Below are positions 54,249 to 59,534 of a stretch of 64,000 bases of DNA, in pieces. The position numbers were made by a program, and so were the translations under genes. The notes beneath the pieces were generated by a model. It was not told the DNA's origin. It saw nothing but the letters and a program-made list of their open reading frames with translations, and did not search any database. Each line of letters opens with the position of its first letter. The stretch's first letter is position 1. The stretch comes from Chloroherpetonaceae bacterium (lineage in GTDB: Bacteria > Bacteroidota > Chlorobiia > Chlorobiales > Chloroherpetonaceae), in NCBI GenBank assembly GCA_028277445.1, contig JANQGG010000025.1, positions 1 to 64,000 of the forward strand, given 5' to 3'.

Positions 54249-54750
54249 AACAGAGCAATAAGTAACTTAAGGTTTTAGCACATGTGTATTGCAAACCCCA
54301 TTATTTAATTAAATTTTCGAAGAATTCAGTCCGGTTAGTTAGAAATTGTATTGAGATGGGGTGATTTTATGAGTCTAAGACTTCTACGTTACTGCCTCAC
54401 AAGCTTATTTTACTTTTCTGAAAAGAAACACTAAATTATGCGATTGTTACCCCTAATTACAACCTTTAACCCTCAATTCATTGTTTGGATGATCCTGGAG
54501 TTTCGCAATATCAAAGACCAGTTGTGGGTCATACGAATGCTTTAAAGATGGAATGTACGACATTCGTATACCCATTAGTTATGACTACGCCTCACACTTC
54601 ACAACCGCGTTCAAAAGACGATTTGGAATCACCCCCAAAGCATTTAAGAAAAAGAGTTAACATTTCAATCCTTCAAAATCACTTTTATTTTCCCACTTGA
54701 TTTTCACATATTCACTACTCATGATACCTTAGATTCTAGCCACTGCTCTT
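54249..54750. other. Gene-poor stretch with a decayed AraC fragment
   Basis: 500 bp without an intact gene. A short piece at 54495-54660 encodes the end of an AraC-type regulator (listed separately). The rest is AT-rich, unassigned sequence. Confidence 0.55.
54495..54660 (+). pseudogene. 3' remnant of an AraC-family regulator
   Basis: In one frame, open from about 54495 to the stop at 54658-54660, the last 25 codons read 'YDYASHFTTAFKRRFGITPKAF' and end in K-K-K-S. This is the second helix-turn-helix and conserved end of AraC-family DNA-binding domains. Upstream in the same frame the match is lost, and no start or sensor domain exists. A gene truncated by rearrangement is the simplest reading. 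Confidence 0.65.
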
Positions 54751-55782
54751 ATGTTCTACATTGTTGTAGCCCTTTTATCAGCCATGTTTTTTGGCGCGTC
54801 CACGCCACTCTGCAAAAGCCTTCTGGATAGTATTCCTCCGTTTAAGCTGGCTGGCTTACTCTACCTTGGCGCCTCGCTCGCCACCCTACCGTTTATGCTG
54901 CGGGAAAGCTCCGGCGTTGATCTGCACCGCATGGGCAAAATAAACAGTTCGCGCTTGCTGGGCGCAATTGCATTCGGCGGCATTTTTGGCCCGGTACTGC
55001 TTCTTATGGGATTGGAAAAAGCTTCGGCAGCCTCCGTTTCGCTCTGGCTTAATCTGGAACTGGTAGCTACCGCGCTATTGGGGGTTTTGTTTTTTAAAGA
55101 TCATCTTGGCCGGTATGGCTGGATCGGCGTAGTTGGCGCACTCTTGGCTTCGCTCCTGCTTACCTGGCATGAAGGCACCATTGGCGTTGTGGCATTGATT
55201 TTTATTGGACTGGCCTGCATAGCATGGGGATTGGACAACCACCTCACTGCGCTCATCGATGGCATTACCCCTACCCAAAGCACCTTCTGGAAAGGCCTCA
55301 TTGCCGGCAGCACCAATTTCTTAATTGGTATGATTTTAGAACCGGGCATTGAAGCGCCCTATACCATAGGTTTAGCCTTGATTGTGGGAGTGTTTTCGTA
55401 TGGGTTGAGCATTACCCTGTATATCACAGCGGCTCAAAACATCGGCGCTACGCGAAGCCAGATGATTTTTGGCAGTGCCCCGTTTTTTGGCGTAGCTCTC
55501 TCATCACTGTTTCTGGGTGAATCGCTCTCCCCGGCCCAGTTCATTGCCAGCACTCTGCTTATCGCTTCATTGGTGGTGCTTTTTATGGAACAGCACATGC
55601 ATGAGCACACCCACGAAACACTTTCACACAAACACCTGCACAACCACGATGCGCATCACAAACATAGCCACGATCAGGGCAAGGTATCCGAAACCGTCCA
55701 TAGTCATTGGCATACCCATGATGAAGCGAGGCACACGCATCCGCATTGGCCCGATATTCATCACCGGCACACGCATTCCTAA
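54751..55782 (+). CDS. EamA/DMT-family transporter with histidine-rich C-terminal tail
   Basis: A 343-residue inner-membrane transporter of the drug/metabolite transporter superfamily: ten hydrophobic segments (~1-280) in two EamA halves ('VVALLSAMFFGASTPLCKSLL' ... 'GVFSYGLSITLYITAAQNIGATR'). The last ~62 residues are a hydrophilic tail with about 25 His (e.g. 'HMHEHTHETLSHKHLH', 'HSHWHTHDEARHTHPHW'). Such tails bind Zn, Ni or Co. EamA proteins with His-rich tails occur in other bacteria. Metal export or import is a reasonable but unproven role. A CDF-like protein is 1.4 kb downstream. Confidence 0.85.
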   Translation: MFYIVVALLSAMFFGASTPLCKSLLDSIPPFKLAGLLYLGASLATLPFMLRESSGVDLHRMGKINSSRLLGAIAFGGIFGPVLLLMGLEKASAASVSLWLNLELVATALLGVLFFKDHLGRYGWIGVVGALLASLLLTWHEGTIGVVALIFIGLACIAWGLDNHLTALIDGITPTQSTFWKGLIAGSTNFLIGMILEPGIEAPYTIGLALIVGVFSYGLSITLYITAAQNIGATRSQMIFGSAPFFGVALSSLFLGESLSPAQFIASTLLIASLVVLFMEQHMHEHTHETLSHKHLHNHDAHHKHSHDQGKVSETVHSHWHTHDEARHTHPHWPDIHHRHTHS

Positions 55783-56024
55783 GCAAATATTGAATAAGTT
55801 ATGCCGGGTCTGATCCGACATCCAAAAACAAACATGTTATTCTTTAAGGATTGCATTCTGCTACGGAATAACAATTTATATCAAGCTAATGGGCATTGAG
55901 TCCAAAAACTGATATAATTATTACGCATACTTTACTACATTAAAAGACATTAAATTGAGTAACTCGCATTAGTAACAATCATGACTTGCAGATTGGAGTA
56001 GTAAATGAATAATCTTTAATCTTC

Positions 56025-57056
56025 ATGACGATGAACAAAACCCTTATCTCATGTTTGTTTTTACTGCTGATAGTCATTTCTCGCCCGTTATATTCCCAAT
56101 CACTTTATAACCTTGGTTTTGAACTTCAGGGTGAAACGAAATTCAACTGGTGGTTTAATAGTGATGATGACGATAGCGAGGAATACACAGGCCATGCCAT
56201 TGATTACCACAGCGAAGGTCTGCAAACATGGCAAGTTTCCGGCGCCATCACCTGGGATGAAGACCCATTATTTGGCGGCAGTATCGAGCGCCCGTTTGAT
56301 GATTCACCCGAGCAACGTGAGATCATAAAAAAAACCACAGAGTCCCAATTTTCGCTGAACCGGTATTTGATTTTTCTTCAACTTCCCTTTTTGCGCGACT
56401 TCTCAGATGCACCACTGATTAGATTTTTATCTCAAGTCAGGGTAGATTATACCCGACGCCAGTTTTATGGCCGGGGTGAAGCTGTGGAATCGGCGGTATA
56501 TGTTCCACGAGAAGGCGAGGCTTTGTTACTTTCGGCGCAAGATGAATTCAGTTATAAAACCACGTTTCAGGATTGGACGATTTCTTTGCTCAAAACCGGC
56601 CACTTCAGGTTTGGGGTTTACCGATCTCAAATCAATAAGCCGTTTGAGACAAACTCCGAGGTTCCCTTCGAAGGAACAGGCCTCAATGCCTTGGTTATGG
56701 AAACCAAATTAACATCCTATGGCCTGTTTGCAGATGTTAAAAGCCGCACCATACACTCTATGATAAAACTGGGCACGGTTGATTTTGAATCCATGGCCTC
56801 AACCAAAGAATACGATCCGGCCATTTTCAATGAATCCGGCATTGATCTTCAGATTTTTTTGAACATCACTACGCCTTTTACCGTGTTTCGGGGTCCAAGC
56901 CTTCCACAAAACGGTTTCTTTATTACCCCACATTTTGGGTTTGAGTTCCGGGCTGATTTTATCGATAAAACGGATGAGAAAGGAAATGATATTGGCGAAC
57001 TCTCGATGGACATCATCCTGATGACAGGGCTCAACGTGGAATGGTATTTTCATTGA
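56025..57056 (+). CDS. Exported beta-rich protein of unknown function
   Basis: A 343-residue protein with a signal peptide ('LISCLFLLLIVISRPLYSQ') and a beta-strand-rich body ('VRVDYTRRQFYGRGEAV', 'FQDWTISLLKTGHFRFGVYRSQI', 'FFITPHFGFEFRADF') ending in an aromatic-His residue pair, suggesting an outer-membrane barrel or a periplasmic domain. An acidic stretch (NSDDDDSEE) lies after the signal. No family recognised. It lies between the two transporters, all on the plus strand, so it may belong to the same metal-related group. Confidence 0.6.
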   Translation: MTMNKTLISCLFLLLIVISRPLYSQSLYNLGFELQGETKFNWWFNSDDDDSEEYTGHAIDYHSEGLQTWQVSGAITWDEDPLFGGSIERPFDDSPEQREIIKKTTESQFSLNRYLIFLQLPFLRDFSDAPLIRFLSQVRVDYTRRQFYGRGEAVESAVYVPREGEALLLSAQDEFSYKTTFQDWTISLLKTGHFRFGVYRSQINKPFETNSEVPFEGTGLNALVMETKLTSYGLFADVKSRTIHSMIKLGTVDFESMASTKEYDPAIFNESGIDLQIFLNITTPFTVFRGPSLPQNGFFITPHFGFEFRADFIDKTDEKGNDIGELSMDIILMTGLNVEWYFH

Positions 57057-57202
57057 ACCAAACGCTCATGACCTTTTTGGTCTTAACCTTCCCAAAGTCA
57101 CATCGGATCATTGTAAAAGATAAACCGCTACGTTTTTTATTTCTTCAATGATGATTTACTTTGTGGATACTGATAACTGGAAATGTGTAAACAACCTGTA
57201 GT

Positions 57203-57850
57203 ATGCCTGCAGTTAATACGAAAAAGCTCTACACCATTGCCTTTGCCCTGGCACTCTTTACCATTATCTATAATCTTGCCGAAGGCATGATTTCCACCTA
57301 TTTCGGTTTTGAAGACGAAAGCCTGGCTTTGTTTGGCTTTGGCACGGATAGCTTTATTGAAGTGATCTCTGGCCTTGGTATTGCTCATATGGTTATCCGT
57401 ATCCAGAAAAATCCCGGCAGTCCCAAAGACCGGTTTGAGCGCACTGCCCTGCGCATTACTGGCGTGGCTTTCTATGCCTTGGTTATCGGGCTTGTTTCTA
57501 CCGGTATTTTTAATATTTGGATCGGGCACAAACCTGTAACCACATTTTGGGGCATTGTGGTTTCTGTGATCTCAATTCTCGTGATGTGGCTGTTGGTGTT
57601 ATGGAAACGAAAGGTAGGGCGCTCACTCAATTCCGACCCCATACTGGCCGATGCCAATTGCACGATGGTGTGCGTGTACATGTCGGTGATTTTGCTCCTT
57701 AGCAGTTCCATTTACGAACTCACTGAGCTGGCTTACATTGATAGCATTGGCTCCATTGGCCTCGGTTACTTTGCGTTTAGCGAAGGCCGGGAATGTTTTG
57801 AAAAAGCCAATAGTGACAAATACTGCTGTTCCTGTGAATGCGCATCGTAA
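57203..57850 (+). CDS. CDF-like membrane protein
   Basis: A 215-residue protein with about five to six membrane helices resembling the transmembrane part of cation diffusion facilitators: 'ESLALFGFGTDSFIEVISGLGIAHMVIRI' is similar to the CDF helix 2 region, and 'DPILADANCTMVCVYMSVILLLSS' to helix 5, but the canonical metal-site residues (D/H) are partly replaced, and the C-terminal cytosolic domain is missing. The end is Cys-rich ('YCCSCECAS'). It may transport metal or act as a sensor. It follows the His-tailed DMT and an exported protein on the same strand. Confidence 0.7.
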   Translation: MPAVNTKKLYTIAFALALFTIIYNLAEGMISTYFGFEDESLALFGFGTDSFIEVISGLGIAHMVIRIQKNPGSPKDRFERTALRITGVAFYALVIGLVSTGIFNIWIGHKPVTTFWGIVVSVISILVMWLLVLWKRKVGRSLNSDPILADANCTMVCVYMSVILLLSSSIYELTELAYIDSIGSIGLGYFAFSEGRECFEKANSDKYCCSCECAS

Positions 57851-58085: not shown

Positions 58086-58475
58086 ATGAGTCAACTTCTT
58101 GTTGTTTTTCTGAATAACACAAATGGCGCTATTTCTTTTGTAAACCAAGAAACCGAAAGTGATAATCAAAATTTAGATCCTTCAGAGATGTTCAGGACTC
58201 AAAATCATTTTAACATACCTGACTGCTCAAGTCAAAAGTACTTTGCAGAACATCACATGGAAGTACGTGATGGAGCTGGCAACGTTTTATTTAGTTTTTG
58301 GGATAATGATCATGAAGACTACAAATTAATGTGCTGTATTAAAAACGATTATACGGCTGCAAAAGATATGCTAGGGTACAATGACGGCGGAAATAACGCA
58401 ACGGTTGGAATTGTTGTATCCGGTAGTCCTGGGAACTATTCGATTATGTCTCATAAAGTATTAAATAATGTGTAG
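58086..58475 (+). CDS. Hypothetical protein
   Basis: A 129-residue soluble protein, no signal or membrane segment, with an 'aaaggg' site about 9 bases before its ATG. The sequence has a 'AEHHMEVRDGAGNVLFSFWDNDHEDYKLMCCI' stretch that suggests a small beta-sandwich, and a Gly-rich 'YNDGGNNATVGIVVSGSPGNY'. No family recognised. AT-rich, within the accessory region. It is followed by a strong hairpin, consistent with a single-gene unit. Confidence 0.55.
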   Translation: MSQLLVVFLNNTNGAISFVNQETESDNQNLDPSEMFRTQNHFNIPDCSSQKYFAEHHMEVRDGAGNVLFSFWDNDHEDYKLMCCIKNDYTAAKDMLGYNDGGNNATVGIVVSGSPGNYSIMSHKVLNNV

Positions 58476-58950: not shown

Positions 58951-59244
58951 ATGGGCAATAAAATGAAACAAATTGATTTTGAAAATGATATCAAACCCCT
59001 ATCTGAATTTAGAGCTAATGCCGCCAACCTTGTAAAGCAAATCAAAGACACAAAACGCCCTTTGATTCTTACTCAACATGGTAAGAGCGCCGCAGTTTTA
59101 GTCGATGTTGCTGCTTATCAGGCATTAGTTGACAAACTAGAACTTTTAGAGGAAGTACAGTTAGCAGAAAGGCAAATATCTGAAGGAAAATTCTGGTCAG
59201 ATGACGACGTAAAAAAACGATTAGAGGACAGATATAAAAATTGA
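58951..59244 (+). CDS. Type II antitoxin, Phd/YefM family
   Basis: A 97-residue antitoxin with the Phd-type N-terminal DNA-binding fold ('PLSEFRANAANLVKQIKDTKRPLILTQHGKSAAVLVDVAAYQAL') and a C-terminal acidic tail that would wrap the toxin ('AERQISEGKFWSDDDVKKRLED'). It overlaps the toxin start by 4 bp (TTGA). It neutralises and autoregulates the pair. Confidence 0.88.
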   Translation: MGNKMKQIDFENDIKPLSEFRANAANLVKQIKDTKRPLILTQHGKSAAVLVDVAAYQALVDKLELLEEVQLAERQISEGKFWSDDDVKKRLEDRYKN

Positions 59245-59534
59245 AATTAATCTGGACAGAATTGGCAGTGGCAAAGCTGGAAGAATTTGCCGACTATATT
59301 GCATTAGATAAACCAATGGCTGCATTGAATTGGGTAGAAACAATGCAAAACTCAGTTAACAAATTAAAAAAATTCCCAAAGTCAGGGCGTCAAGTTCCTG
59401 AAATTAATAGGGTAGATATTAGAGAGTTAATCGAAGGAAATTATCGAATCATTTATCGCACAGAATCGAATCGTATTTCCATTCTTACTATCAGACATAC
59501 TAAGCAGCCTTTAACTCCATCAGATGTGTTTTAA
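59241..59534 (+). CDS. Type II toxin, RelE/ParE family
   Basis: A 97-residue toxin of the RelE/ParE superfamily: 'LIWTELAVAKLEEFADYIALDKPMAALNWVETMQ' and the core 'RELIEGNYRIIYRTESNRISILTIRHTKQPL'. It uses a TTG start overlapping the antitoxin stop. Whether it is an mRNA-cleaving RelE or a gyrase-poisoning ParE is not decided by sequence; the 'YRIIYR' and 'RHTKQPL' ends favour the ParE branch. The pair sits in a region of decayed duplicates, as mobile TA modules often do. Confidence 0.87.
   Translation: MKLIWTELAVAKLEEFADYIALDKPMAALNWVETMQNSVNKLKKFPKSGRQVPEINRVDIRELIEGNYRIIYRTESNRISILTIRHTKQPLTPSDVF

Follow-up and report, generated by a model that had tools for sequence, protein, structure and literature searches.

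Two nearby metal-transporter homologues that do not form a conserved system in a Chloroherpetonaceae genome, one of them a CDF core without its C-terminal domain

Do three neighboring genes that appear to share a metal theme belong to one transport system, or do they only lie side by side? The question arises at a locus of the window (i.e. the whole 64,000-nucleotide stretch of Chloroherpetonaceae DNA analyzed), where the original prediction combined an EamA transporter with a histidine-rich tail (ORF1), an exported, beta-rich protein with an acidic patch (ORF2), and a protein resembling the CDF transmembrane core (ORF3) into an uncharacterised metal transport system. The answer we consider probable is that these are 3 independent genes, 2 of them metal exporters (ORF1 and ORF3) and the other an exported orphan (ORF2).

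Arrangement of the three genes

The 3 consecutive plus-strand ORFs are present as predicted (Table 1), with intergenic gaps of 242 bp (ORF1–ORF2) and 146 bp (ORF2–ORF3), i.e. without the tight spacing of an obvious operon. Scanning the region reveals 8 promoter-like sites, which is chance level given a shuffled expectation of 7.9, and 6 terminator-like sites compared with 3.8 expected (sd 1.9), none of them within the 2 gaps.

The surroundings hold further coding sequence. Upstream of ORF1, a 36-residue fragment resembles the C-terminus of an AraC-type HTH regulator (window 54550-54660; HTH_18 match 8e-06, below cut-off) and is probably a remnant. Directly 3' of ORF3 is an ORF of 129 aa with no Pfam or NCBIfam matches (window 58086-58475), and overlapping Phd/YefM antitoxin and ParE toxin genes are located just 3' of the gene group (window 58951-59534).

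Table 1. Features of the locus, with positions in the window
Feature	Position	Strand	Basis
ORF1: CnrT-type DMT (EamA) transporter, 343 aa	54751..55782	+	Pfam EamA, CnrT alignment
ORF1 His-rich C-terminal tail, residues 282-343, 23 His	55594..55779	+	Tail alignment
ORF2: exported orphan, 343 aa, acidic patch	56025..57056	+	No Pfam match, own genome only
ORF3: 215-aa CDF transmembrane core lacking the C-terminal domain	57203..57850	+	PF01545, AlphaFold2, YiiP match
ORF3 predicted transport site, TM2 part: D49, E53 (DxxxE)	57347..57361	+	YiiP alignment
ORF3 predicted transport site, TM5 part: C153, C157 (CxxxC replacing HxxxD)	57659..57673	+	YiiP alignment
ORF3 cysteine-rich C-terminal tail CCSCEC, residues 208-213	57824..57841	+	Tail conservation

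ORF1 is a homologue of CnrT

ORF1 matches EamA (PF00892) in 2 stretches of the protein, with a Pfam score of 108.3 bits against a cut-off of 28.2. A tblastn search of a plasmid collection with ORF1 returns 61 records, including CnrT from pMOL28 of Cupriavidus metallidurans (37.7%, 96% query coverage) and 2 cyanobacterial genes (52–53%). Without its tail, the ORF1 core shares 36% identity with CnrT of pMOL28 across 246 alignment columns (1.4e-30), and 53–54% over 277 with the 2 cyanobacterial plasmid homologues; as such, its closest plasmid relatives are cyanobacterial proteins, not CnrT itself. The histidine-rich tail also stands, with its content revised from "about 25" to 23 histidines in the last 62 residues, compared with 4 in the first 281. 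This tail aligns end to end with those of CnrT and of the Stanieria, Chondrocystis, and Novosphingobium proteins, and each of the 5 aligned proteins has 23–24 histidines in its last 62 residues.

CnrT is described as an inner-membrane exporter of Ni(II) in the accessible text of one paper (PMC11647595), and is placed in the DMT family in that of another (PMC7019866). Given its CnrT-like core, its tail that aligns with that of CnrT, and this description of CnrT, ORF1 is, judged from sequence, a homologue of the CnrT-type nickel exporters, and hence of an already-known kind; "uncharacterised" is not a term that fits it. If it acts like CnrT, ORF1 would be a DMT-fold carrier of the inner membrane that moves out cytoplasmic Ni(II), and perhaps Co(II), with a tail that gathers metal. 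The homology itself is directly visible in the alignments, while substrate, direction, and tail function are what we infer from CnrT. The 2 proteins are alike in their core and tail but differ in setting: the cnr nickel RND operon ends with cnrT, whereas ORF1 is not beside such an operon in the window. Specifically, no RND-type long ORF was found beside ORF1 in the listed window flank; RND genes are present on other contigs of the same genome. The cyanobacterial plasmid homologues are near zinc P-type ATPase, ArsR/SmtB-type, and CzcA/Nrs-type RND genes.

ORF1 matches at E ≤ 0.001 are present in 5 of 101 relatives, with strong ones only in G000 and G001, and matches at 1e-30 in 3 of 296 genomes of the phylum. 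The ORF1 orthologue of the nearest relative, G001 (locus L111), meets a TAG inside the His tail, and it is adjoined by FmdE-like and TonB-dependent-receptor-like proteins, both named by eye.

ORF2 and the linkage of the three genes

A hydrophobic, signal-like stretch at the N-terminus of ORF2 and an acidic patch (6 D/E among residues 45–54) agree with the predicted exported protein. No Pfam family matches it at E up to 1, homologues are found only in the window's own genome (1/101 relatives and 1/296 genomes of the phylum), and a single-sequence structure model, the basis for judging the proposed beta-rich character, is unusable (pLDDT 31.9). ORF2 is an exported orphan, possibly located in the outer membrane or periplasm; the acidic patch is the sole hint of a link to metals, and a metal role is unsupported.

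A distance of 789,978 bp separates the ORF1 (70%) and ORF3 (55%) orthologues in the nearest relative. Likewise, homologues of ORF1 or ORF2 are absent near ORF3 homologues in all 79 named loci (up to 10 kb on each side) and in all 54 sampled loci (up to ~6 kb on each side). The conserved co-occurrence on which the prediction of a three-gene system depended is therefore not found in the 101 relatives or the phylum samples. With no linkage in the relative or phylum searches, and with ORF2 an orphan, we reject a conserved three-gene metal system, which corrects a tempting reading of this locus. ORF1 and ORF3 are unrelated metal-transporter genes that happen to be close together, although a metal theme does persist in part of the group, 2 of the 3 ORFs being metal-transporter homologues.

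The histories of the 2 genes also differ. ORF1 is common to the window's genome and its nearest relative. ORF3 is found in 28 of the 101 relatives, and in its tree the window gene belongs to a 26-row, mostly Flavobacteriaceae set (99/96; bootstrap not fully settled), while G001 groups separately with 5 rows of its order (99/93); L026, a distant row from that order, falls outside this group. Horizontal acquisition is the simplest reading of this tree, and ORF3 most likely came from Flavobacteriaceae.

Could the group still be a young, lineage-specific metal-export cassette, in which ORF1 and ORF3 export to the periplasm and ORF2, as a protein of the outer membrane or periplasm, binds the metal or passes it on? 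The 3 consecutive same-strand genes, with 2 metal-transporter homologues within 3.1 kb, and the acidic patch of ORF2 would be consistent with this, but the intergenic gaps, the lack of linkage in any relative examined, the orphan status of ORF2, and the different histories of ORF1 and ORF3 make it distinctly unlikely. What speaks against the independence that we favor is that 3 genes in a row on one strand could be co-transcribed.

ORF3 as a CDF core without a C-terminal domain

ORF3 matches Cation_efflux (PF01545) with 42 bits against a curated cut-off of 26.6, and reaches 34.4 bits, under the 82.35 cut-off, with the NCBIfam CDF superfamily model. An AlphaFold2 model built with 54 sequences (pLDDT 91.5) contains 6 helices, the last of which ends at residue 203, leaving only a short tail and no C-terminal domain in a protein of 215 aa. 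Foldseek searches of this model against the PDB return YiiP chains as best matches (E 5.9e-06, TM 0.79 by query length), and VIA-align superposes it on YiiP with Z 21.9 (203 aligned residues, rmsd 3.4), followed by SLC30A10 and other ZnTs; the first non-CDF row appears at Z 10.6. The structure-based search, by which a non-metal family would have counted against the prediction, thus assigns ORF3 to CDF, and the expected CDF core devoid of its C-terminal domain is borne out: by model and family match, ORF3 is a genuine one. The CCSCEC motif is also present, not at the very end as predicted but followed by 2 more residues (...KYCCSCECAS).

ORF3 and YiiP/FieF have in common the six-helix transmembrane fold, but their identity is 13% and ORF3 has no C-terminal domain. 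Two ordinary CDFs encoded in the same genome carry HxxxD in both TM2 and TM5, and their C-terminal part is longer. Short CDFs have precedents. MmCDF3 of Maricaulis maris is reportedly one of the short bacterial CDFs of Kolaj-Robin 2015. In its accessible text, PMC7926707 presents CDF proteins with a short C-terminal region as already known, and credits the bacterial cases to Kolaj-Robin 2015. TMEM163, a further protein for comparison, keeps DxxxD in TM2, unlike the DxxxE of ORF3, and the same portion of PMC7926707 does not describe the CxxxC of ORF3 TM5 for short CDFs or TMEM163.

A predicted transport site with two cysteines

Site A of YiiP is composed of D45, D49, H153, and D157, as given in the accessible part of PMC6440370. 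Profile alignment places 'vDsfie' of ORF3 on 'VDSLVD' of YiiP and 'aDaeCtkvC' on 'ADMLHYQSD', so that D49, E53, C153, and C157 of ORF3 correspond to these 4 residues. The E-values are modest (best 0.0016) and the TM2 end is less certain, while the TM5 block is ungapped. The predicted site of ORF3 is thus D49-E53 / C153-C157, i.e. D-E / C-C instead of the D-D / H-D of YiiP.

We assessed conservation of this site in sets of different origin. Peptide patterns that include CTMVCVYM and EGRECFEK served to collect the 79 named loci, which are therefore biased for C153/C157 and the tail, so these features were recounted on pattern-free sets of 23 and 54 proteins. The larger set consists of G001 and 53 genomes from outside the window's order; of the 54 matches there, one fragment (G134) was omitted. 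Here, D49, E53, E27, and C157 are each present in 54/54 members and C153 in 50/54, the remaining 4 having E, Q, or D at position 153. Within the window's order, D49, E53, and C157 are found in all 23 proteins and C153 in 22. The tail cysteines C208 and C211 are each conserved in 23/23 proteins of that order and in 67/71 of a contig-derived set; position 208 was not used in the 54-protein alignment, where it falls in a gapped stretch (41/54 gaps). One conservation count took 95 of 109 ORFs, the 14 outside 195–262 aa being dropped.

Overall, the clade is present in 80 of 394 genomes of the phylum (E up to 1e-20) and in 44 of 170 genera. It apparently represents a widespread, little-studied group of CDFs without a C-terminal domain and with a predicted thiolate-containing site. 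Carried by about a fifth of the sampled genomes, with two cysteines brought in and the C-terminal domain lost, the clade offers a natural experiment on the requirements of CDF selectivity and regulation.

The site is presumed to be the main determinant of metal choice in CDFs, and those described are DD-HD, HD-HD, ND-HD, or all-Asp (accessible parts of PMC1868760 and PMC6440370). According to Montanini 2007, which discarded truncated sequences, TM5 has HxxxD in every Zn- and Fe/Zn-CDF and DxxxD in the Mn-CDFs, and there are 2 odd clusters (PMC1868760, accessible part). The TM5 motifs of these Zn, Fe/Zn, and Mn groups are not those of the clade, most members of which have CxxxC. The modified TM2–TM3 signature in the same part of PMC1868760 matches 0/55 and 0/109 clade proteins, yet it is too insensitive to settle whether the clade belongs to these groups, being found in just 1 of 3 canonical control CDFs. 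In the open-access literature, we found no description of a CxxxC transport site in a CDF, of a DE-CC site, or of the ORF3 clade.

ORF3 is a CDF carrier cut to its six-helix core. Homology with YiiP would make it a proton-coupled exporter that binds its metal between TM2 (D49, E53) and TM5 (C153, C157), with a short Cys tail on the cytosolic side in place of the C-terminal domain. Zn, Cd, Fe, or Co would fit two thiolates and two carboxylates better than Mn would. A CDF fold does not by itself fix the substrate, however: MceT, also a CDF, moves Na+, and changes in the site can alter the cation (PMC6440370, accessible part). This precedent and the replacement of HxxxD in TM5 raise the prospect that the ORF3 clade no longer exports metal, transporting another cation instead or serving as a sensor. 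We regard this as very improbable, given that the 4 site positions remain potential metal ligands in nearly all members, that the tail is rich in Cys, and that several lineages have metal-gene neighbors.

Gene neighbors of the ORF3 clade

Among the named loci, FeoAB adjoins the CDF gene on the same strand in 4 of 79 (≤91 bp or overlapping) and a DtxR-type repressor is found 7–8 bp downstream in 3, i.e. 7 of 79 together. A scan of 110 adjacent ORFs of 58 CDF genes, near-identical ones being dropped, also lists FeoA (6), FeoB (3), and Fe-dependent repressor (3) among the 25 most frequent of 134 adjacent families. These links could indicate that the clade is iron-specific, a ferrous-iron exporter balancing Feo uptake under a DtxR-type repressor. 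The link, good in the named loci, falls to 1 of 54 in the pattern-free sample, and the ArsR/SmtB, Cad, and HMA contexts would indicate other metals. In addition, L079/L082 and L087-L089 are close relatives, so there are few independent Feo/DtxR linkage events. An iron-specific role is thus unlikely, and we rejected it as an explanation based on this linkage. In L079 and L082, there is an 8-base overlap between the minimal-CDF ORF and the end of a fused feoAB gene.

In the pattern-free sample, we scanned 103 adjacent ORFs within 400 bp of the 54 loci. The 25 most frequent of 125 adjacent families include DUF5362 (11), canonical CDF (3), and HMA (3); the minimal-CDF gene is followed at 9–16 bp by a canonical CDF in 3 of the 54 loci and has HMA-domain proteins beside it in 3. 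Plasmid relatives of ORF3 amount to 69 records, and in 4 of 5 examined an ArsR/SmtB gene is directly upstream, in one case with a Cad transporter gene following. The actinobacterial-plasmid 'cation transporter' proteins encoded behind ArsR/SmtB resemble ORF3 (29–33% identity) in being short and in keeping C157, but the 5 aligned have E or Q at position 153 and their tails mostly do not have the CxC ending.

Since the Feo/DtxR link is weak in the pattern-free sample and most clade neighbors are not metal genes, the metal nature of ORF3 rests mainly on its fold and family. The neighbors support transition-metal work without fixing the metal. A bolder proposal, which we put forward tentatively and hold to be somewhat doubtful, is that the clade represents a widespread further kind of metal CDF, with no C-terminal domain, a DE-CC carboxylate-thiolate site for soft or borderline metals, a short Cys tail that replaces the missing domain in recruiting and sensing metal, and a function retuned by context. 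If true, the Feo, DtxR, ArsR, or second-CDF links seen in different genomes would reflect such retuning.

DUF5362, a term for which we found no paper in the open-access literature, is the commonest of the pattern-free neighbors named above, and its 11 loci all belong to one family, f10 (L190, L206, L197, L184, L189, L194, L196, L188, L185, L198, and L192). In each, the gene for this membrane protein lies -22 to 54 bp upstream of the ORF3 homologue on the same strand, and the DUF5362 protein is a possible partner of the minimal CDF in that family.
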